Shown here: in pieces, positions 2,998-13,464 of the stretch
How positions within the stretch are numbered: position 1 is the first letter of the stretch
How the letters are laid out: every line of letters starts with the position of its first letter
Source: Planctomycetaceae bacterium
GTDB taxonomy: Bacteria > Planctomycetota > Planctomycetia > Pirellulales > Pirellulaceae
Direction: 5' to 3'
Assembly: GCA_002724245.1 (NCBI GenBank)
Contig: PBOG01000060.1
Coordinates: forward strand, 1-64,000
Length of the DNA: 64,000 bases
Notes under the pieces: model-generated
What the model was told of the DNA's origin: nothing
Seen by the model: the letters and a program-made list of their open reading frames with translations, nothing else
The model's database searches: none
Program-made: the position numbers and the translations under genes

Positions 2998-3795
2998 TCA
3001 AAGAGCTTCGCCTGGGGTCGTTTTCTCTGTCAACAGCCGCAGTTGGTCGGAACGCAACCGACCATCATGCAACGCAGAAGCCACCAACGCTCCGTCACAC
3101 CCCGCGTTGATGAGTGCCTCGAGATCCGAGTGACCTCGTACACCACCACCCGTAATCAGCTTGATATCCGGCCACCTCCGGCGGATTTCCTGACAAACTG
3201 AAAGAGACTGATTGCCAGCCGCCATCCCCACATCAGCTAGATCCAACACGATGATCTCGCGAAACCCCACTCCTACAGCGCGCTCAGCAATTTCTAATGG
3301 ATTCGCCAGGTCCCAGCTCTCGCGCACCAACGGCCGGCCGCCCTTCAAATCCAAACTAAAAACCGCCGTATCGCGTCCGAGCGTACCCAACAGCTCTTCC
3401 AATTGGGAAGAATTACCTAGCGACTCCAAGGCGACAATTACCCGGTGCAAACGCGCCCCGGCATGATTCCAGTCCTTCGCCTGCTGAGCCTTGTCCACTG
3501 AATCAATGCCGGCGTCGAGCAGCAAGCGGCTCCCCGCTCGTATCATCTCGCCAAGCGAATGCTCATCGACCGTAGCTCCACCGATTGCATCCAGATCGGC
3601 TACGTACATTTCCTGCAACGCGAACGCGCGAATGAATCCGCGCGCCACATCGAACGGCTGCGCTGTTCGACAAAGTTGACTGCACACCGGTTGATAGCGT
3701 TCGCGGGCACCCGCAATTCCACGGACAACACGCCCCTGCTTCAAATCAATAACGGGAATCACCTGCACGGTTCCAATCTCACTCCCATTCAACAC
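2998..3795 (-). CDS. HisA/HisF-like TIM-barrel protein
   Basis: The 265-residue protein begins with the HisA-type first strand (VIPVIDLKQGRVVRG) and later has the phosphate-binding loops typical of the fold (ITGGGVRG near residue 216 and DGALVASALHDGRL near 235). HisA isomerises ProFAR in histidine synthesis. This copy is not beside other his genes, has lost several HisA signature positions, and lies between a kinase and an MBL protein. It is therefore more likely a paralogue than the histidine enzyme. HisA-like paralogues are, as far as I recall, found with tetrahydromethanopterin genes in methylotrophs and planctomycetes, and an fhcD gene lies in this window, but the link is an inference. 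The start is uncertain: ATG 3795 or GTG 3768. Confidence 0.75.
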   Translation of the reverse strand: MLNGSEIGTVQVIPVIDLKQGRVVRGIAGARERYQPVCSQLCRTAQPFDVARGFIRAFALQEMYVADLDAIGGATVDEHSLGEMIRAGSRLLLDAGIDSVDKAQQAKDWNHAGARLHRVIVALESLGNSSQLEELLGTLGRDTAVFSLDLKGGRPLVRESWDLANPLEIAERAVGVGFREIIVLDLADVGMAAGNQSLSVCQEIRRRWPDIKLITGGGVRGHSDLEALINAGCDGALVASALHDGRLRSDQLRLLTEKTTPGEAL

Positions 3796-3878
3796 GCAGA
3801 ACCTGTCCCATTTGGCACAGCTGGATTAGATACAACACACTCCAGGAACATCTCACCCGCAGGTTCCTCGTTGGCTTG

Positions 3879-5519
3879 TCAGTTACCATTCTGTCGCGGT
3901 GGAAATCGGGCCGACTTCCGCCGCGTTTTCCCCCCGCGCCGCACCTTCTGTGAAGGCCGTCGCTCGGGCGGCCTTCGTTGTTCATTTTGCACGCGACTCA
4001 TTCGTTCTCGTAACGGCGGATCAAGTACACGCAGAACCCCCTGCCCCCGTCCGCCAAGTTTCTCGAGATCCTGGGCAAGCCGCAAAAGCGTCGCCGAAAG
4101 TTCATTACGGTCGCCCTGGGCCTGGTAAATATTAGCCATGCCGGCGAGCCCCAGGGCTCGTTGCTCAATAAGACCTTCACCCAGGTCAGCCAGATCGCGA
4201 TACAGTGACAACGCCTCACGTACTCGTCCTTGGTCGAACAAAATGTGAGCGAGTTCTGCATTTGCCTTGGAGACATACTGGTGACTTTCCGTCTGTGGCT
4301 CTCCCCCAAAGTAACCTTCCACTGCCTCCCATGATGCTTGCGAGGGTTCGAGAATCGCATGCAAGTACTGCAAACGGGCGGACTTTTTCTTTTCAACACG
4401 TGGAAGATCCGCGTTAGTTACCTTGAGAATTGACTCCGGTATTCCCAGATATGCCCAAGCTGTTCCCACAACAGTTCCACACATCAGCCCCAACACAATC
4501 ACCGACACCATACGGCGTGTCGGAGAGCCTGTTCCCTCGACTTTCATAAGCACATCCAACTTGCGCGTCGCATCCAACCGCGCACCGTCAAGTGTCCGCT
4601 CACTCGCAGCTACCTCCTCGGCGAAATGCCACTGGCTGCCAGATTCGTCCAGCGAGAGCTGTCGTAAATCCTGAATCAAATCCGTTGCCGAGTCATATCG
4701 CTCGTCTGGTTTTTTGCCAAGGAGCTTGTGAACGATATCACATAAGGAAACTGGCAAGTCGGCACGTAATGTTTGCAAGCGTTCAGCCTCTTCATGAAGG
4801 TGCTGGACAGCGACATTCAGTGCTGTTTCACCTGCAAACGGTGTTTTCCCAGTAAGGATCTCGTAAGCCGTTATACCTAGCGAGTAGAGATCACTTCGCG
4901 GATCTACCTGACCGCCTTGAATCTGCTCCGGACTCATGTACAGCGGTGTTCCCAGAGTCAAACCCTGTTGTGTCAATTTCAGATCTACAGCCTGTTCACT
5001 GATGGCCAGTCTGGCCAAACCGAAATCAGCGACTTTCGCTTCACCAGCTCTGGTAAGCAAAATATTTTCTGGCTTGATGTCGCGATGAACCACCCCTTGT
5101 TGACTTGCACATTGGAGGGCAGCCGCGACCTGTCGAATCACCGCAACCGCCTGACCTGCAGGGCATCTTCTCGAGCCGGCAAGCCACTGCCGTACCGTCC
5201 CCCCTGCAACATACTCCTGCGCAAGATAATGCCGTCCGTCCAGACAGCCTACTTCATGAATTTGAACAATATTTGCGTGCACCAGTGACGCCGCTGCCCG
5301 CGCTTCCTGCTGGAACCTGCGAACGCAATTCTCATCACGCGTCAACGTGGACTTCAACACCTTGAACGCGACATCCCGGTCGAGTGACACTTGCCGCGCC
5401 AGATACACCTCAGCCATGGCGCCGCTGCCCAGTCGCCGCAGGAGACGGTAGTCGCCCAGTTGCTGGCCACTCAAATCCTCGTCAGTTTGCGAAGCTGGCG
5501 ACGGAAAAGCTTCATTCAT
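3879..5519 (-). CDS. Membrane-anchored Ser/Thr protein kinase with TPR-like C-terminus
   Basis: This is a Hanks-type kinase of 546 residues. The glycine loop is LGSGAMAEVYL (30-40), the ATP lysine is in AFKVLK (K53), the catalytic loop is HRDIKPEN (145-152), DFG is at 165-167 and the APE region reads SPEQ (196-199). One transmembrane segment lies at about 338-358. The extracytoplasmic 190 residues look helical and repeat-like (VREALSLYRDLADLG, EQRALGLAGMANIYQAQGD), as in TPR sensors. The C-terminal end is very basic. The gene reads into the HisA-like gene (83 bases between them), so they are probably co-transcribed. Planctomycetes carry many such kinases; ligand and targets are unknown. Confidence 0.93.
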   Translation of the reverse strand: MNEAFPSPASQTDEDLSGQQLGDYRLLRRLGSGAMAEVYLARQVSLDRDVAFKVLKSTLTRDENCVRRFQQEARAAASLVHANIVQIHEVGCLDGRHYLAQEYVAGGTVRQWLAGSRRCPAGQAVAVIRQVAAALQCASQQGVVHRDIKPENILLTRAGEAKVADFGLARLAISEQAVDLKLTQQGLTLGTPLYMSPEQIQGGQVDPRSDLYSLGITAYEILTGKTPFAGETALNVAVQHLHEEAERLQTLRADLPVSLCDIVHKLLGKKPDERYDSATDLIQDLRQLSLDESGSQWHFAEEVAASERTLDGARLDATRKLDVLMKVEGTGSPTRRMVSVIVLGLMCGTVVGTAWAYLGIPESILKVTNADLPRVEKKKSARLQYLHAILEPSQASWEAVEGYFGGEPQTESHQYVSKANAELAHILFDQGRVREALSLYRDLADLGEGLIEQRALGLAGMANIYQAQGDRNELSATLLRLAQDLEKLGGRGQGVLRVLDPPLRERMSRVQNEQRRPPERRPSQKVRRGGKTRRKSARFPPRQNGN

Positions 5520-5580
5520 GACGCCCCGGACCTTCCGTCTCTAATGTACAGCACACTGCATTCCATGTAGTCACCCGCTC

Positions 5581-6465
5581 TCAGGGGGATTCCATAAAAC
5601 GTCGAGCAATCTTGGTCGCGACCGTACCGATGTCGTAATAGCCAACTGAAATCTTTCCGACATGCGTAAGTAGATCGTAAGCTCTCCATCGATTCCACCC
5701 ATACTCACTTTCCATCCAGAGAATCAACTCGGCGTACCCTTGTGCAATAGCCCGTTCCATGGGCCGCCCGGTCGCAACGGTCATGATTTCATCAGCGGAT
5801 TCGATCCGCGGACCCGGGATGGTCTTCTGGTGGAGATCAACACGAATCGTCGTGTGTGACGGCATCTCCAGACCACTCGCTGACAATTCGCCGTGTCCCA
5901 TGGCCGCGTGCGCGTCCCCTAAATAGAGCAAGGCACCCTCTACAAACACAGGAAGGTAAACGGTACTTCCCGGGCAGGTCTCAATAATATCCATGTTGCC
6001 ACCGTGCGGACCCGCTGGGCCGGTCGTAGGTACACCAGCCCGCGGTGCAGTACCAATGCATCCCAACATCGGCCGGTAAGGAATGCGTACGCGATCACTC
6101 CAGATGATCTGCCCATCGCGAACAGGGCACACATGCGTACCATGGGGACAGTCTGTCCCCAGCCACTGAGCAAGTTGCTTCGGATCGCTCGTCCGTGTCG
6201 CGCACTGGCCTAAGGAGGGCTCAATACTCTCAATGTGAATTGCCAGACTATCCCCAGGATGCGCATCTTCGATCCAGATCGGTCCCGTCTGCGGGTTCCC
6301 TTCAGGACAGGCCTGCTTATCACGTCGATCACGATCATCACGGATCTGCCCAGAAAAAGCATCTTCCGTTTCCACCAGCACGGTTTCCCCGGAACCGATG
6401 CGTAACCGCGGTTCGCAATGGCGGCTGAATTCGTAATACAAAGGTCCCTGCGATAATCTTTTCAT
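5581..6465 (-). CDS. Acetamidase/formamidase family protein
   Basis: The 294-residue protein matches the FmdA/AmdA family, which hydrolyses formamide or acetamide to ammonia and the acid. Family hallmarks seen are VEPSLGQCATRTS-like N-terminal elements, a conserved IEDAHPGDSLAIHIESIEP stretch, MLGCIGTAPRAGVPTTGPAGPHGGNMD (residues about 130-156), LGDAHAAMGHGE (about 184-195) with likely metal-binding Asp/His, and the C-terminal YDLLTHVG. No signal peptide is present, so it is cytoplasmic. It is transcribed away from the amidohydrolase at 6678 across a 212-base region that contains a small palindrome. Substrate specificity cannot be read from the sequence. Confidence 0.9.
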   Translation of the reverse strand: MKRLSQGPLYYEFSRHCEPRLRIGSGETVLVETEDAFSGQIRDDRDRRDKQACPEGNPQTGPIWIEDAHPGDSLAIHIESIEPSLGQCATRTSDPKQLAQWLGTDCPHGTHVCPVRDGQIIWSDRVRIPYRPMLGCIGTAPRAGVPTTGPAGPHGGNMDIIETCPGSTVYLPVFVEGALLYLGDAHAAMGHGELSASGLEMPSHTTIRVDLHQKTIPGPRIESADEIMTVATGRPMERAIAQGYAELILWMESEYGWNRWRAYDLLTHVGKISVGYYDIGTVATKIARRFMESP

Positions 6466-6534
6466 GGCATATTATTCACGACGAGGCATCGAGGTTGTTG
6501 GCTACGACGGGATGAACCACCGCAATGTACCACA

Positions 6535-6547
6535 TAGAATGATTCTA
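6535..6547. promoter_or_regulatory. 13-base palindrome between divergent amidase genes
   Basis: TAGAAT-G-ATTCTA is a perfect inverted repeat with a one-base centre, lying in the 212-base divergent region between the acetamidase and amidohydrolase genes. It could be an operator shared by the two genes. A 12-base match can arise by chance, so confidence is low. Confidence 0.3.
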
Positions 6548-6677
6548 CAGCGTTACGGATTCATGGTTTCGCCATACACTATCCTCAGTAACACACGTTA
6601 ACACTGCAGGACGATCAAGCCCTGCCTCCTTTCGTACGCGCCGACGCGCGTTCCCTTCGACCGATACCGGACAACTA

Positions 6678-7853
6678 ATGACAAACAACACCTTTGATAT
6701 CCTGCTGCGTCAGGGAGAAGTCATCGATCCCTCACAGGCACTCCGCGGCACACGTGACGTCGGGATTCGTGATGGCAAGATCGCGCGAGTTGCAGAACAT
6801 CTGGAAAACTGTACAGCAACCCACATTGTAGATGCTCGGGGACTTTACGTCGTACCTGGATTGATCGACCTCCACGTTCACGTCTACCGCGACCACTGCC
6901 CATTATCCCTGGACCCGGATGAACTCTGCCCGGCCGGTGGCGTGACAACCATGCTTGATGCAGGCAGTGCTGGCCCTCTGAATTTCGGTGGCTTCCGGCG
7001 CGACATCATCGAACGCAACGAAACGCAAGTGTTGGCACTGGTAAACCTCTCGTGCATTGGCCTGGTCGCCTTTCAATTTGGGGAACTAATGGATCCGCGT
7101 TATGCCGACCGCAAAGGAGTTGTGGAAACTTTAGCAAAACACGAGGGTATCGCCGTCGGTGTCAAGATTCGTGCCAGCAAACATATCATCGGTGACGGCG
7201 AACAAGGATGGAACAATTTCATGGAAGCTGTCGGCGCTGCACGCGACTCGAACACCTGGCTCATGGTCCACATCGGGGAAAGCCCGATGTCGATCCCTGA
7301 GATGCTGAAGCACCTTGAGAAAGGTGACTGCATTACCCATTGCTTCAAGGGCGGTAGCGAGACAATCTTCGGTTCCGACGGACAGCTGCACCCCGCTGTT
7401 CGTGAAGCCTCAGAACGTGGTGTCGTGTTTGACGTGGGGCACGGAGCTGGAAGTTTTCAATGGGAAATCGTACAAGCCGCCCTGGACCAGGGGTTCGAAC
7501 CCACCACGATCAGCACCGACTTGCATGCCCTGAATGTGCACGGCCCCGTCTATGATATGCCAACAACGATGTCCAAGTTTCTGGCACTTGGCGTTCCACT
7601 GGACCGAGTGATCAAAATGTCGACCACAAATCCCGCTCAGGTATTGGGCCAGAGTTCTGAACTGGGGACCCTCCGCGAGGGAACCGTTGCGGATGTCGCG
7701 GTACTGGAGAAAACCAGCGGGAAATTTCTGCTCACGGACAGTTATGGCACTCGCCGTGTTGGTGACGATCTACTGGTTGCCGCCGCAACCATTCGACGTG
7801 GGACCCTGGTTGCCGGAGGTGGTGGCACGCGCATGCGACACCGCGCCGAATAG
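6678..7853 (+). CDS. Amidohydrolase/deacetylase-family metallohydrolase (dihydroorotase-like)
   Basis: The 391-residue protein has the amidohydrolase barrel. Metal ligands appear as HVHVYR (residues 64-69), a probable carboxylated lysine in VGVKIRAS, a histidine in LMVHIGES, another in GDCITHCFKG, and the final Asp in STDLHALN. The N-terminal beta-sandwich begins FDILLRQGEVIDPSQALRGTRDVGIRDGKIARV. These are the marks of the deacetylase/dihydroorotase-like branch, which cleaves amide or cyclic amide bonds. It is next to an amide hydrolase on the other strand, hinting at joint degradation of an amide or cyclic ureide, but the substrate is not known. Confidence 0.9.
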   Translation: MTNNTFDILLRQGEVIDPSQALRGTRDVGIRDGKIARVAEHLENCTATHIVDARGLYVVPGLIDLHVHVYRDHCPLSLDPDELCPAGGVTTMLDAGSAGPLNFGGFRRDIIERNETQVLALVNLSCIGLVAFQFGELMDPRYADRKGVVETLAKHEGIAVGVKIRASKHIIGDGEQGWNNFMEAVGAARDSNTWLMVHIGESPMSIPEMLKHLEKGDCITHCFKGGSETIFGSDGQLHPAVREASERGVVFDVGHGAGSFQWEIVQAALDQGFEPTTISTDLHALNVHGPVYDMPTTMSKFLALGVPLDRVIKMSTTNPAQVLGQSSELGTLREGTVADVAVLEKTSGKFLLTDSYGTRRVGDDLLVAAATIRRGTLVAGGGGTRMRHRAE

Positions 7854-8072
7854 CAACCGGCTTGAATCCAAGATACCGCGCACCCTCCCTACAGGGCCCT
7901 TGTCATCTGCAAGTCAGAGTGCCAGACCAACTGCCACATTCTCTGCAATTGACAGAGTTTTGGTATCTCACGCAACCTCGCACAAATACGCCCACACCAA
8001 CTTGCAATGGTTCCTTTTGCTGAGTTCCGCGGCAGACTAGGATGGTAGATAGGACGTAGTAAAGGGTATTGC

Positions 8073-8528
8073 ATGACTGCAGAACGAGTCTTCATGATGG
8101 GTGAATTCGCTGCCCATTTCCCCAGCGATCGGCATTACGCCCGAAATCACATGTGGGCCATGGGAACAAATGGTCAATGGAAGTTCGGATTTACGGCCTA
8201 TGCAGTCCGGTTGCTACAGGACGTCTATTTCCTCGACTGGACTGTCGACCCCGAAACAACCCTTCAGGAAAAGGCCGAAATTGGTTCGATCGAGAGCAAG
8301 AAGGCGGAAAGTGACCTCTACGCACCCATCGCGGGCACAGTGCTCCGTCTCAATGACCAGTTACTTAGTGATCCCTCGACAATTAATGTCGACAAGTATG
8401 GTGACGGCTGGTTGTTTGAGATGGCAGGTGTGGGGGATAATCTGTTAAGCATAGACGAGTACATCACACATCTGGACGCGGTCTGGGAAGTCACTCAACG
8501 AACCATCAAAGGGCAACTCAACGAGTGA
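8073..8528 (+). CDS. GcvH-like lipoyl carrier protein
   Basis: The 151-residue protein has the H-protein fold pattern: an N-terminal DRHYARNHMWAMG element, a hammerhead lipoyl domain with the attachment motif IESKKAESDLYAPIAG (lipoyl lysine K77 by alignment with ESVKA), and GDGWLFEM downstream. H protein carries the aminomethyl group in glycine cleavage. No gcvT, gcvP or lipoate ligase is nearby, and the N-terminal 20 residues and C-terminal helix are not typical. It may therefore be a stand-alone lipoyl carrier. It is followed 98 bases later by a ferredoxin-type gene on the same strand, which makes a redox partner role plausible. Confidence 0.85.
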   Translation: MTAERVFMMGEFAAHFPSDRHYARNHMWAMGTNGQWKFGFTAYAVRLLQDVYFLDWTVDPETTLQEKAEIGSIESKKAESDLYAPIAGTVLRLNDQLLSDPSTINVDKYGDGWLFEMAGVGDNLLSIDEYITHLDAVWEVTQRTIKGQLNE

Positions 8529-8626
8529 CTTTTTACATGGTTCTGCGCGTGTGCAAAGCACCTTCCCCCCCGACCGGGCTCTTCAATTACAGTTTCTGTT
8601 CATATACACAAACAGGCTAACCAGCG

Positions 8627-9727
8627 ATGGCAAAACGGATCACCGCGATTGTCTCACAAGGACAAAGCCAAAACCCGGCAAAGCGACAACTCGAAGAAGA
8701 CATCGTTACGGCCCTGGTACTCGAGTCCGGTATTGATGTCATTGTGGTCCCGCATCTTTATGACCTTCGCGGTGATGCAACTGGAATGCTGGCTTTACAA
8801 GGTGTGAAGGGCAACATGATTGTCCTGTCATGGCTATACGAACGCGCTGCACGTTGGATCCTGGACCGCAACTCAGTGAGCGGTCTCACGGGAAAATCAC
8901 TTATTCAATCTGAAGATGAAGATGACGATGACGTTACCGAGTCCATCGAGGACACTACAGATCGTGTTGCCGACGCCCGGCCAGTCCCACAACGGCGCAT
9001 CTACTGTCTTGACCTGCGATGCGATGACTCAGCGGCGACCTACATCGAGGAAGTCAAACGGATCGCTGCTGAAAATAGTGCCGACGTCGTCCCGTTGATG
9101 GACTGGATTTCAGGAGACCCTAAACCAGAACAACTGGAGCGTTACCTCCACCCCACAACCAGTCCTCAGACGCCCGCGACGCTACCTGCAGATCACGACA
9201 CCACTATTTCAACCTCCGAATCGTCTCCAGACGCCGAGCGTCATTTGGAGACGCCTGAACAGCGCCGTTGGTACCCGGTCATCGACTTTAGCCGATGCAC
9301 CAATTGCATGGAGTGTATCGACTTCTGTCTATTTGGCGTTTACGGTGTCGATCAAGCAGAAACGATTCTCGTGGAACAGCCAGACAACTGTCGCAAAGGC
9401 TGCCCAGCCTGCAGTCGAGTCTGTCCCGAAAATGCAATCATTTTCCCGCAGCACAAAACTCCAGCCATCGCCGGCGCGCAGATCGCAGCCGGCTCGCTGA
9501 AAATCGATTTATCTAAACTATTCGGGGCACCCGAATCAGACGAATCCGCCGCGCAGGCCGCGACTCGAGAACGGGATGAGCAACTTGTTATGGCTGGCAG
9601 GGCCCCCGTCGCACCGGAGCCTGCTTCTGCAGCAGCGCCGCCAGCAACACCACAGGTCGCCGAACTCCCGGTAGCAAAGGATCATTTGGACGATCTGATC
9701 GACGAACTGGATGAACTCGATTTGTAG
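8627..9727 (+). CDS. Ferredoxin-type 2[4Fe-4S] protein with unknown N-terminal domain
   Basis: The 366-residue protein has two iron-sulphur motifs near residues 224-265: CTNCMECIDFC (Cx2Cx2Cx3C) and CRKGCPACSRVCP, in which the first spacing is Cx3C instead of the usual Cx2C. An N-terminal domain of about 170 residues (from KRITAIVSQGQSQNPAKRQLEEDI) precedes it. That domain contains an acidic linker and YCLDLRCDDSAATYIEEVKRIA, and I do not recognise it. The C-terminus is Ala/Pro-rich and ends in an acidic helix (DDLIDELDELDL), suited to docking. No membrane segment is visible. The position after the lipoyl carrier gene suggests an electron-transfer pair. The acceptor is unknown. Confidence 0.85.
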   Translation: MAKRITAIVSQGQSQNPAKRQLEEDIVTALVLESGIDVIVVPHLYDLRGDATGMLALQGVKGNMIVLSWLYERAARWILDRNSVSGLTGKSLIQSEDEDDDDVTESIEDTTDRVADARPVPQRRIYCLDLRCDDSAATYIEEVKRIAAENSADVVPLMDWISGDPKPEQLERYLHPTTSPQTPATLPADHDTTISTSESSPDAERHLETPEQRRWYPVIDFSRCTNCMECIDFCLFGVYGVDQAETILVEQPDNCRKGCPACSRVCPENAIIFPQHKTPAIAGAQIAAGSLKIDLSKLFGAPESDESAAQAATRERDEQLVMAGRAPVAPEPASAAAPPATPQVAELPVAKDHLDDLIDELDELDL

Positions 9728-9983
9728 TTCAATCGTACTAGTCGTAGCTCGATTCAGGCTGCCGCCGGTGCCAGAACCCCGCCCTTAAATCAATTACACC
9801 ACTCCACCTGCAGATTGAAACGGCTCGGAAACGCCACCGAACGCCGATCCGCTATGTCACCAGTTCAAAGTATGCAACGCCCGCACGCCAATCCGTCTGG
9901 CCGGGTTAACAAGCCGCCAGTAACGCATGCGGATTCCCCCGCTCTCAGTCTTGATCAGGGCGTTCCTTCTACACGATGTTGCC

Positions 9984-11906
9984 ATGACAACTGATCTTAT
10001 ACTCGGTACCGCAGGACACATCGACCACGGGAAAACCTCCCTGATCAATGCGTTGACCGGGATCGACACAGATCGTCTTCCAGAAGAAAAGCGGCGCGGA
10101 ATCACCATTGAACTGGGTTTTGCAGAAATGACCCTGGGAGATTTTCGCCTGGGAATCGTCGATGTCCCTGGCCACGAACGTTTTGTTCGTAACATGCTGG
10201 CGGGCGCAACCGGGATGGACCTGGCTATGCTGGTCGTCGCGGCGGACGATTCAATCAAACAGCAAACTCGAGAACATCTGGAAATCCTGCGGTTGTTGAA
10301 TCTCGCAGCGGGCGTCATCGCGATCACCAAATGTGATCTCGTGGAGCCAGACTGGCTAGAACTAGTCGAGGAGGAGATACAAGAACTCGTTGCCGGTAGT
10401 TTTCTCGCATCAGCCTCCATTGTTCGCACCAGCAGCTCCACCGGTACAGGATTGGACGACCTGCGGGAAGAAATCGTCACCGCGGCCCGTCGCGCAGCGG
10501 GGCTCGACAGGGTAAAGCACCTCGACACTCCGTTCCGCATGGCCATCGACAGGTGTTTCACCTTGGCCGGGCATGGAACTGTCGTTACCGGAAGTGCGGG
10601 CAGCGGCACTGTCGCGGTTGGAGATGAACTAGAACTCCAGCCTAGTGGAACGCGAGTGCGAGTACGCCGGCTCCACAATCATGACCGAGAAGCGGAAAAC
10701 GCGCACCGCGGACAGCGTGTTGCGATTAACCTCGCAGGTGCGCACCATGATGAAATACATCGCGGCCAGGAGCTTGCCGCGCGAGACTATTTAAAGGCCG
10801 GCAAACTGCTGACGGTGTGGCTGCTCTACCTCGACTCCTCGCGGCGCCCCCTCAAACACCGCTCACAAGTTCGTCTACACCTCGGCACGGCAGAAATCAT
10901 CGCGTCCCTGGTCCTCTTGGATCAGGAGTCGCTGGCACCAGGCGAGTCTTGTTTTGCCCAACTGTTTTTGCATGACACCGTCGCCACCACCTGGAACCAG
11001 CCCTTTGTGCTACGTAGTGAATCCCCCGCCATCACAATCGGCGGCGGACAGGTGCTGGTACCCTCCGCATTAAAACTCCGTGGCCTCGACGACGTGGAAC
11101 GTCAAATGCTGACAGCCTTGCGCTCGGACGATGCGTTGCAACGGGCATCAGCCGCCAGCTATTTCTCTGGCTTGCGTTCCGTAGAGCCACAAGATCTCGC
11201 GCGACTTGCAGGCGTTGAACATTTTGCCAATGTCCACCAACAACTGCTCGAAGCGGGCGAACTCCTGACCATTACGATTTCACCGACACGCACCGCGCAT
11301 TTACACCGCCAGGTCATCGAGTCACTTTGCCAGCGTTTCGAAGCGGCGCTCAGCAACCTCCACGAGCAGAATCCATTGCGAAGCTCGCTCGACCGCGCTC
11401 CGTTTGTGCGCGGCTTCGAGTACCTCGGTGAAAGTGCGATCATCGAAGCAGTCCTTAACTCCCTCCATCAATCTGGTCGTATTCGTTTGACAGCAAAGTC
11501 CATAGCGATGGTTGGCTGTGGCCCTAAGTTATCCCAGAACGAACGCAAGCTTCTGGCGACCCTGATCACCCAATACCGAGATGCTGGACTCGGAACACCC
11601 ACAGTCAAGGAAGCCCAGCAACGGGCAAAAAAGAATCAAGACTCCGTACCTCAACTGATCGCCTTGGCAGCGAACGACGGGGACCTGGTTGAAATCACCA
11701 GTGACTATTTCGTCCATACAGAGGTGCTCGACCAGGTCCAGCAAACACTGCGTGGCACAATCAGTCCCGTTGAGGGAGTTACAATGAGCCAAATACGAGA
11801 ATGCCTCTCTACGACCCGTAAATTTGCCATCCCGCTCTGTGAATATTTCGACCGCATCGGGTTCACTCGCCGAGATGGAGATATACGTTATCTCGTGGAT
11901 CCATAA
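9984..11906 (+). CDS. selB: Selenocysteine-specific elongation factor SelB
   Basis: SelB is the EF-Tu-like GTPase that brings Sec-tRNA to UGA codons by binding the SECIS hairpin. The start is taken at ATG 9984, giving the usual N-terminus TDLILGTAGHIDHGKTSL. Visible motifs are G1 GHIDHGKT (11-18), the switch RRGITIELGFA, G3 DVPGHERF and G4 TKCD. EF-Tu-like domains II and III follow. The last 200 residues hold winged-helix repeats that bind SECIS RNA (for example FEAALSNLHEQNPLRSSLDRAPF). At 640 residues it has full family length. selA follows after 151 bases on the same strand. Its presence means that the organism reads some UGA codons as selenocysteine, and one such gene lies at 42581-43189. 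Confidence 0.97.
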   Translation: MTTDLILGTAGHIDHGKTSLINALTGIDTDRLPEEKRRGITIELGFAEMTLGDFRLGIVDVPGHERFVRNMLAGATGMDLAMLVVAADDSIKQQTREHLEILRLLNLAAGVIAITKCDLVEPDWLELVEEEIQELVAGSFLASASIVRTSSSTGTGLDDLREEIVTAARRAAGLDRVKHLDTPFRMAIDRCFTLAGHGTVVTGSAGSGTVAVGDELELQPSGTRVRVRRLHNHDREAENAHRGQRVAINLAGAHHDEIHRGQELAARDYLKAGKLLTVWLLYLDSSRRPLKHRSQVRLHLGTAEIIASLVLLDQESLAPGESCFAQLFLHDTVATTWNQPFVLRSESPAITIGGGQVLVPSALKLRGLDDVERQMLTALRSDDALQRASAASYFSGLRSVEPQDLARLAGVEHFANVHQQLLEAGELLTITISPTRTAHLHRQVIESLCQRFEAALSNLHEQNPLRSSLDRAPFVRGFEYLGESAIIEAVLNSLHQSGRIRLTAKSIAMVGCGPKLSQNERKLLATLITQYRDAGLGTPTVKEAQQRAKKNQDSVPQLIALAANDGDLVEITSDYFVHTEVLDQVQQTLRGTISPVEGVTMSQIRECLSTTRKFAIPLCEYFDRIGFTRRDGDIRYLVDP

Positions 11907-12057
11907 AATGACGACCCGCACCACCGATGCTGGCGCCCGCCAGTCGCCCCCCCACTCCGGTACAACATCCTGCAAACTACCAGGAAACGACTTCCAACCA
12001 ACCACTCCGCGTCTACAGTCTTGCCTGGCCTGACCGAACGCGGTCCTTCAACAGCAC

Positions 12058-13464
12058 GTGGAGTATGCGTCCGTGAAGTCCAAGCCTTTTCGTAATATCC
12101 CATCGGTGAACGAACTGCTGGAGAGTCCGCCTCTCCAGAACATGGTTGAGCGTGCCAATCGCAATGTCGTGGTCAATGGAGTACGAACGTTCCTTGACAA
12201 CCTGCGTCAGGAAATGCAGACCACTGCCGACCTGCCGATTCCGAACCCCGCCGAACTCGCCGAACGCATTGTTCATTGGATCCAGGAAGACGAAACGCCT
12301 TCATTACGGCCCGTTGTCAACGCCACAGGCATTTTGCTGCATACTGGCCTTGGCCGCGCACCCCTCGCCACCGAAGCGCTGCAAGCCGTGCACGACGTCT
12401 CGCGAGACTATGCAAGCCTTGAAGTCGACCTCGCGACCGGACAACGTTCCCAGCGTGTCACTGCGGTCGACAAACTTCTCAAACAACTCACCGGCGCCGA
12501 AGCCTCCGTCGTTGTCAACAACAACGCCGGAGCAACACTGTTGGCCCTGGCTGCATTAGCAGCTGGCAAGGAAGTTATTGTCGCCCGTGGTGAATTGGTA
12601 GAGATCGGAGGTAGCTTTCGACTTCCAGAAGTCATGGAACAAAGTGGGGCAGTGCTTCATGAGGTTGGCTCTACTAACAAGACACGGATCACGGATTACC
12701 AGAACGCCATAACAGAGCACACCGGTGCCTTGCTGAAAGTCCACCCCAGCAATTACGTTGTCACTGGATTTACCGAAGAAACCCATATCAACGATCTCAT
12801 CGCGTTAGGACGCAAACGCCACATACCAGTAATTCATGACATTGGATCGGGAGCACTTCTCGATTTTGCGCAATTTGGTGTCGAAGGCGAACCGTTGGCA
12901 ACGGAGAGTCTTCGTCAAGGTGCGGATGTTGTACTCTTTAGTGGAGACAAGTTACTGGGTGGCCCACAGTGTGGAATTATCTGCGGCTCCCAGATCTGGA
13001 TGAATCGAATCGCAACGCACCCCCTTATGCGTGCGTTGCGAGTCGACAAAATGACACTGGCGGCCTTAGCTGCAACTTTGCGTCTTTACCGCGACCCCAA
13101 AGAAGCAATCCACGCGATCCCCTTGCTGCGTCTGCTCAATACGCCCGTCGAGAACCTGCGGCAACGAGCGGAAAAGCTCAGTACACAACTCGCGACACTA
13201 CCAGCTTTTACTACCGCGACACCTGTAGACGATATCAGCTTCCTCGGCGGCGGCTCGTTGCCCAATCAGCAACTCGCTACCGTGTGCGTCGCTCTGGTTC
13301 CAGCGTCAGGAAGCGTGAATCAGACGGCTGCAGCGTTGCGGGCCGCCGACCCAGCAGTGTTCGGCCGCGTACACAACAATCAACTTCTGCTCGATCTCCG
13401 CACGGTGTCTCCCTCTGAAGACCAGAAACTCCTGGAAGCAGCGAGCCAACTTGCTTTGAGTTGA
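12058..13464 (+). CDS. selA: L-seryl-tRNA(Sec) selenium transferase SelA
   Basis: SelA converts Ser-tRNA(Sec) to Sec-tRNA(Sec) using selenophosphate, with PLP as cofactor. The 468-residue protein matches the family length. Motifs include IPSVNELLE near the N-terminus, RPVVNATGILLHTGLGRAPL (about 82-101), the gating segment SLEVDLATGQRSQR, and the PLP-lysine site FSGDKLLGGPQCG with the lysine at about residue 298. The start is GTG 12058 or the in-frame GTG 12073. The gene lies downstream of selB on the same strand, the usual bacterial selB/selA pairing. No selC (tRNA-Sec) or selD is visible in the window, so these must lie elsewhere. Confidence 0.97.
   Translation: MEYASVKSKPFRNIPSVNELLESPPLQNMVERANRNVVVNGVRTFLDNLRQEMQTTADLPIPNPAELAERIVHWIQEDETPSLRPVVNATGILLHTGLGRAPLATEALQAVHDVSRDYASLEVDLATGQRSQRVTAVDKLLKQLTGAEASVVVNNNAGATLLALAALAAGKEVIVARGELVEIGGSFRLPEVMEQSGAVLHEVGSTNKTRITDYQNAITEHTGALLKVHPSNYVVTGFTEETHINDLIALGRKRHIPVIHDIGSGALLDFAQFGVEGEPLATESLRQGADVVLFSGDKLLGGPQCGIICGSQIWMNRIATHPLMRALRVDKMTLAALAATLRLYRDPKEAIHAIPLLRLLNTPVENLRQRAEKLSTQLATLPAFTTATPVDDISFLGGGSLPNQQLATVCVALVPASGSVNQTAAALRAADPAVFGRVHNNQLLLDLRTVSPSEDQKLLEAASQLALS

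Follow-up and report, generated by a model that had tools for sequence, protein, structure and literature searches.

The window, the whole stretch of 64,000 nucleotides analysed here, contains two genes that lie head to tail, 98 bases apart (Table 1). The upstream gene encodes a GcvH-like lipoyl carrier, HL, and the downstream gene encodes a ferredoxin with an extra N-terminal domain, FD. A sequence-only reading of this DNA had described a GcvH-like protein followed by a ferredoxin, and both open reading frames were confirmed at the stated coordinates. No sigma-70-like site was found in a promoter scan of positions 7850-9990, and no clear terminator was seen between the two genes. The selB- and selA-like genes stand directly 3' of the pair in L068, L069, L115 and L116, which among the loci read are the members of the window's genus; because the adjacency is confined to that genus, we do not claim a selenium link. 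In L158 a selA-like gene is present but far from the pair. ARAGORN found no tRNA genes in the window.

Table 1. Coordinates of the pair, its motifs and the genes that follow it in the window
Feature	Position	Strand	Basis
HL, GcvH-like lipoyl carrier, 151 aa, no cysteine	8073..8528	+	ORF, Pfam, structure, alignment
K77 codon, predicted lipoylation site, ESKKAES motif, hairpin tip	8301..8303	+	alignment and model
FD, N-domain, 2[4Fe-4S]-type ferredoxin and acidic tail, 366 aa	8627..9727	+	ORF, Pfam, alignment
FD N-domain, residues 1-155, Rossmann-like alpha/beta	8627..9091	+	predicted model, profile comparisons
FD cluster motif I, C224-x2-C227-x2-C230-x3-C234	9296..9328	+	51/51 rows
FD cluster motif II, C255-x3-C259-x2-C262-x3-C266-P, odd first spacing	9389..9424	+	51/51 rows
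selB- and selA-like genes after the pair	9927-11906 and 12058-13464		named by eye

The two proteins of the pair

HL resembles an H protein in sequence and in predicted fold. Pfam GCV_H matches it (1.8e-19), the solved structures nearest to it in sequence are without exception H proteins, and its AlphaFold model (mean pLDDT 91.2, from a 34-row alignment) gave 22 Foldseek matches at E 0.001 or better, all of them H or H-like proteins. Lysine 77 is invariant (36/36 rows) and sits in the model between strands 69-75 and 79-83. The window's genome has four LplA/LipB-type matches, and because an invariant lysine occurs together with such lipoylation-type genes, HL is probably lipoylated at K77. An apparent 734-residue HL in L257 was considered as a fusion and rejected; it is an over-long upstream frame.

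All eight cluster cysteines of FD are invariant (51/51 rows), including those of the Cx3C that opens motif II (C255-C259), which also occurs in the diverged rows of A3. When set against CxxCxxCxxxC, motif II departs from it, being Cx3Cx2Cx3C. The unusual CxxxC spacing had been pointed out in the sequence-only reading and, because it is invariant, it characterises the family and does not stem from a sequencing error. The best NCBIfam match of FD is PorD_KorD (1.5e-9), under the cut-off of that model. FD has the eight cluster cysteines in common with 2[4Fe-4S] ferredoxin domains of the PorD/HdrA type, but differs from them in the Cx3C of motif II, in its extra N-domain and in having no FAD domain; Pfam gave only Fer4-type families and one chance-level match, and a FAD/thioredoxin-reductase domain is absent.

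The N-domain had been described as about 170 residues long and of no known family. The second part of that description stands, with only chance-level matches in Pfam and NCBIfam, but the folded part is slightly shorter, spanning residues 1 to about 155 (pLDDT mostly above 90) before a low-confidence linker to about residue 213, so that the earlier length is nearly right. Confidence is also low over the ferredoxin part of the model, from which nothing was concluded. Foldseek found nothing for the FD model at E 0.001 or better. VIA-align gave Z up to 9.6 (3.0 A over 108 residues) to mixed Rossmann-like folds, a mixture from which we took no function.

Conservation and neighbours of the pair

At E 0.001, 46 of 60 related genomes contain an FD relative (a strong match in 45), and at E 1e-12 so do 69 of the 294 genomes sampled from the phylum. 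In the named collection FD matched 299 stretches, of which the best 80 were analysed; all had planctomycete titles or were bacterial bins, two being labelled Kuenenia. Of the best 80 loci, 77 have at least 700 bases upstream, and in 66 of these HL directly precedes FD on the same strand, with a median gap of 88.5 bases between tblastn ends; in the remaining 11 HL is absent from the stretch examined. The neighbourhood search that the sequence-only reading had called for therefore finds the pair conserved. The two HL/FD pairs in records titled Candidatus Kuenenia are L169 and L188. In the HL tree L188 clusters with Planctomycetaceae rows, and the Kuenenia-titled bins may therefore be mislabelled.

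Clustering of the neighbourhoods of 40 and of 80 loci gave a recurrent operon order: an adenylate-forming EhpF-like ligase (AMP), an aldehyde dehydrogenase (ALDH), an Fe-alcohol dehydrogenase (Fe-ADH), a BamB/PQQ-type propeller protein, a HemN-like radical SAM enzyme (rSH), HL and FD. By tblastn, rSH was found in 42/63, the propeller in 41/58, Fe-ADH in 37/52, ALDH in 33/51 and AMP in 32/48, each denominator being those of the 80 loci with enough sequence upstream. AMP is a near full-length match to EhpF (PDB 3hgu; 8e-40), but its setting differs from that of EhpF in that no phenazine genes are among the operon genes identified. Some near loci continue with a SPASM-like radical SAM enzyme (rSP), a class II terpene-cyclase-like protein (CYC), a fusion of DUF116 with a polyprenyl diphosphate synthase (PPS), a chorismate-lyase-like protein (a weak match) and a FAD reductase-like protein, the last named by eye and the others by family matches. 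Among the near loci with enough sequence downstream, rSP was found anywhere in the stretch in 20/52, CYC in 10/52 and PPS in 9/48. On the closed chromosome CP043547.1 (L178), a near-complete set, rSP excepted, lies in one stretch. Searches of the open-licence literature turned up no paper that describes either the pair or the operon.

In the window's own genome the pathway is kept but the operon is split, since the remaining parts were found on other contigs: AMP-ALDH-Fe-ADH on C94, propeller-rSH on C44, rSP on C192, CYC-PPS at the end of C280, and the remaining part of PPS with the two next genes at the opening of C28. Here CYC has a DADDT motif and rSP a CxxxCxxC motif. Just upstream of AMP-ALDH-Fe-ADH (L110, G000:C94) are two large genes, at positions 8936-13001, that by eye resemble NuoG/formate dehydrogenase and NuoF types. 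Beside rSP (L302, G000:C192) lie an acyl-CoA dehydrogenase-like gene (5538-6671), 57 bases 3' of rSP and on the same strand, and then a fatty-acid desaturase-like gene (3750-4802), both named by eye; these neighbours are a possible lipid link.

Across the 60 related genomes, FD (present in 45 and absent from 15 by strong matches) follows rSP and not the HemN-like rSH. The counts of genomes with both, FD only, the other only and neither were 43, 2, 0 and 15 for rSP, 44, 1, 0 and 15 for HL, and 44, 1, 4 and 11 for PPS, whereas rSH was present in 43/45 genomes with FD and in 15/15 without it; the strong-match thresholds are our own choice, the genomes are not independent, and Fisher p-values on such counts disregard relatedness. 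At the threshold used, FD occurs without rSP in G035 (72% complete) and G040 (99% complete), without HL anywhere in the genome in G052, and without PPS in G002 (82% complete). PPS occurs without FD in G039, G043, G053 and G055, and a strong rSH match is missing from G035 and G052. Among the genomes without FD are four from the window's own family and one each from f3 and f7, families that also have FD-bearing members. Because FD-less genomes are scattered among FD-bearing families in this way, several separate losses or gains of FD are likely.

In other families of the phylum, a deeper set of 17 loci (L253-L269, from 17 of the 69 matching genomes) contains one cluster composed of HL, a G3E GTPase, a small protein with four invariant cysteines (sHN), FD, rSP, PPS, a second cyclase-like protein (cyc2) and CYC. 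Profiles found HL in 13, G3E in 13, sHN in 13, FD in 17, rSP in 15, PPS in 15, CYC in 13 and cyc2 in 15 of the 17, counts for which these loci themselves supplied some of the profile members and in which sHN includes two fused domains. Four of these loci (L266-L269) have FD without HL in the stretch examined, and four have a cysteine desulfurase-like gene (u0, named by eye). The open reading frames of FD and sHN overlap by 4 bases in L253, L256, L263, L063, L064 and L065, and those of FD and rSP do so in L256, L264 and L267. A further three loci (L270-L272) have HL in 3/3, rSP in none, PPS in one and CYC in one. The DUF116 domain of PPS is itself rich in cysteine, with seven that are invariant in four rows.

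The deeper loci also suggest where the N-domain of FD might have come from. In L266 and L267 an sHN domain is fused to FD with its cysteines kept, and there is no HL in the stretch. Profile comparison joined sHN to these fused domains at 99.5%, and joined the intermediate N-domains of L264, L265, L268 and L269 to the window-type N-domain at 99.5%. The sHN and fused rows together (11 + 2) matched the N-domains at 92% (E 5e-7) when the four intermediates were included and at 38% without them; an initial comparison of FD with only three sHN rows had given a probability of 2.6%. On the strength of these intermediates, the N-domain of FD is a probable descendant or relative of sHN that lost its four cysteines. 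L264-L269 appear to form an evolutionary series: a separate four-cysteine protein, a fusion with the cysteines and a fusion without them.

HL beside known lipoyl carriers

The window's genome has a complete glycine-cleavage operon with its own H protein, on a different contig from the pair. On C211, gcvT, gcvH, gcvPA and gcvPB stand together with an LplA-like gene (gcvP and LplA were named by eye, with an LplA-B_cat match there). Whether that operon might lack an H protein had been raised by the sequence-only reading, and it does not; nor does the window hold another glycine-cleavage gene, as that reading had noted, a tblastn search of it with the genome's own GcvT, GcvPA, GcvPB and LplA giving no match. 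HL and GcvH are alike in fold, in the lipoyl-lysine hairpin and in about 30% of residues. HL differs in having no gcv genes nearby and in several motifs (an N-terminal FMMGEF strand, QDVYF and a C-terminal IKGQ helix). It forms its own clade: in a tree of 47 rows (20 GcvH, 13 near HL and 14 deeper HL), in which the program flagged long inter-group branches, a branch with 100/99 support splits HL from GcvH. HL also falls below the NCBIfam gcvH cut-offs (74.4 vs 115.85 bits for TIGR00527; 88.5 vs 117 for NF002270), and below those of the GcvH_rel_desulf and 'not_gcvH' models. By these tests HL is not GcvH. That HL might be a second glycine-cleavage H protein, with FD an unrelated neighbour, would fit its fold and lysine, but its separate clade, its low scores, its tie to FD in 66 of 77 loci and the canonical gcvH in the gcv operon make this highly improbable.

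Known users of lipoate are five enzyme complexes and the sHdr route of sulphur oxidation; the LbpA of the latter has two conserved cysteines, some archaeal LbpA excepted (PMC6067878). HL can be likened to LbpA and GcvH-L, which are also GcvH-derived carriers outside glycine cleavage. LbpA and HL both adjoin iron-sulphur proteins and have the conserved lipoyl lysine in common, but HL is without these conserved cysteines: the window's HL has none, no alignment column has cysteine in 30% of the 34 rows, and 20 of the 34 rows are cysteine-free. No sHdr or LipS1/S2 genes were seen among the recurrent neighbour clusters that could be named. By these tests HL is not a sulphur-oxidation LbpA. The sequence-only reading had drawn an analogy to sulphur pathways, and it is wrong or at least unsupported: HL lacks the LbpA cysteines, no sHdr set was seen beside it, and its partners are radical SAM and terpenoid-type enzymes. 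The same reading had proposed a check for lipoate ligase and Hdr-like genes; the former are represented by the four LplA/LipB-type matches, and CCG (HdrB-type) domains are present elsewhere in the genome. A version in which HL carries sulphur as LbpA does, with FD part of a degenerate Hdr-like system, could appeal to the iron-sulphur protein next door and to motifs of sHN and the FD N-domain, which may resemble those of the HdrA N-domain. However, the sHN profile found nothing in PDB with 3 rows and only a chance-level match, not HdrA, with 11, and single small sHN proteins did not find HdrA in NCBIfam and Pfam. Together with the cysteine counts and the lack of an sHdr set in the loci read, these results make the sulphur version very unlikely.

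A possible role in a terpenoid-type pathway

We have high confidence that HL, FD, rSP and PPS are associated. The reading that we tentatively prefer, at somewhat less than an even chance, is that HL and FD are dedicated parts of a terpenoid-type planctomycete biosynthetic pathway and not of glycine cleavage, with FD feeding rSP and HL serving as a lipoyl carrier. The proposal of a separate lipoyl-dependent redox system survives to this extent: the pair is real, conserved and apart from glycine cleavage, and a lipoyl-dependent redox role remains the best guess. We have moderate confidence that FD would be the electron donor of rSP, because FD tracks rSP, is sometimes translationally coupled to it, and has clusters of a type from which radical SAM enzymes draw electrons. 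FD would pass low-potential electrons singly to rSP and perhaps also to the HemN-like enzyme, and its N-domain could be a docking platform. In the deeper lineages the docking part might instead be the separate four-cysteine protein, translationally coupled with FD and joined in the cluster by the G3E GTPase. HL, lipoylated at K77, would offer a swinging dithiol arm that presents either a substrate or FD-derived reducing equivalents to rSP or the DUF116-synthase while a cyclised polyprenyl product is built. Our confidence in this role of HL as an arm is low to moderate; its likeliest cargo would be a substrate intermediate, or reducing equivalents for rSP or the Cys-rich DUF116 domain. From PPS and CYC, the end product is presumably a cyclised polyprenyl compound. 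Several observations count against the pathway reading. HL is not always needed, since FD stands without it in G052 and in the stretch examined of L266-L269; G040, 99% complete, has FD but no rSP at the threshold used; the related genomes are not independent; in near relatives the tie to the terpenoid half is mainly one of co-occurrence (the rSP, CYC and PPS counts of 20/52, 10/52 and 9/48); and in the window's genus the pair adjoins selB-selA instead of the operon.

The genes upstream of HL point to a different cargo. The EhpF-like ligase (8e-40), the aldehyde dehydrogenase and the Fe-alcohol dehydrogenase precede HL in one operon, and AMP-ALDH also flanks the deep cluster in L261, so HL could be the ligase's acyl carrier: an acid would be activated, held as a thioester on the dihydrolipoyl arm and reduced by the two dehydrogenases. 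However, where HL and FD are missing the HemN-like enzyme is still present (15 of 15 genomes), in most cases behind this same block of genes, and because the block is retained there it appears to work without HL; we consider an acyl carrier unlikely. HL might also be a substrate and not a carrier in service, if rSP, FD, sHN, the GTPase and the cysteine desulfurase built or modified its lipoyl-type arm. SPASM-type enzymes often act on proteins, rSP tracks HL and FD, and the desulfurase-like gene (u0) is found in four loci, all of which would suit such maturation. But L266, L267 and L269 have FD and rSP with no HL in the stretch examined, the genome has its four LplA/LipB-type matches, and the cyclase and synthase would be left unexplained, so that we also think maturation of HL improbable.

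If the terpenoid-type reading is true, a lipoyl carrier that is found across the phylum with radical SAM and terpenoid-type enzymes would add to the roles of lipoate. We speculate, with considerable doubt, that the job is a new one, in which a GcvH-derived arm that a dedicated ferredoxin reduces or serves, a radical SAM enzyme and a DUF116-polyprenyl synthase with a class II cyclase make a planctomycete-specific polycyclic terpenoid. Planctomycetes are a phylum with unusual membranes, and the association points to an uncharacterised lipid pathway in them. They are also a largely aerobic group, for which the terpenoid-type reading names a radical SAM enzyme's electron donor that can be put to the test.

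The genomes that lack HL and FD (L195-L208, L213) keep rSH, mostly with AMP-ALDH-Fe-ADH-propeller and often with a chorismate-lyase-like gene. This suggests that the rSH block belongs to a still wider planctomycete pathway.
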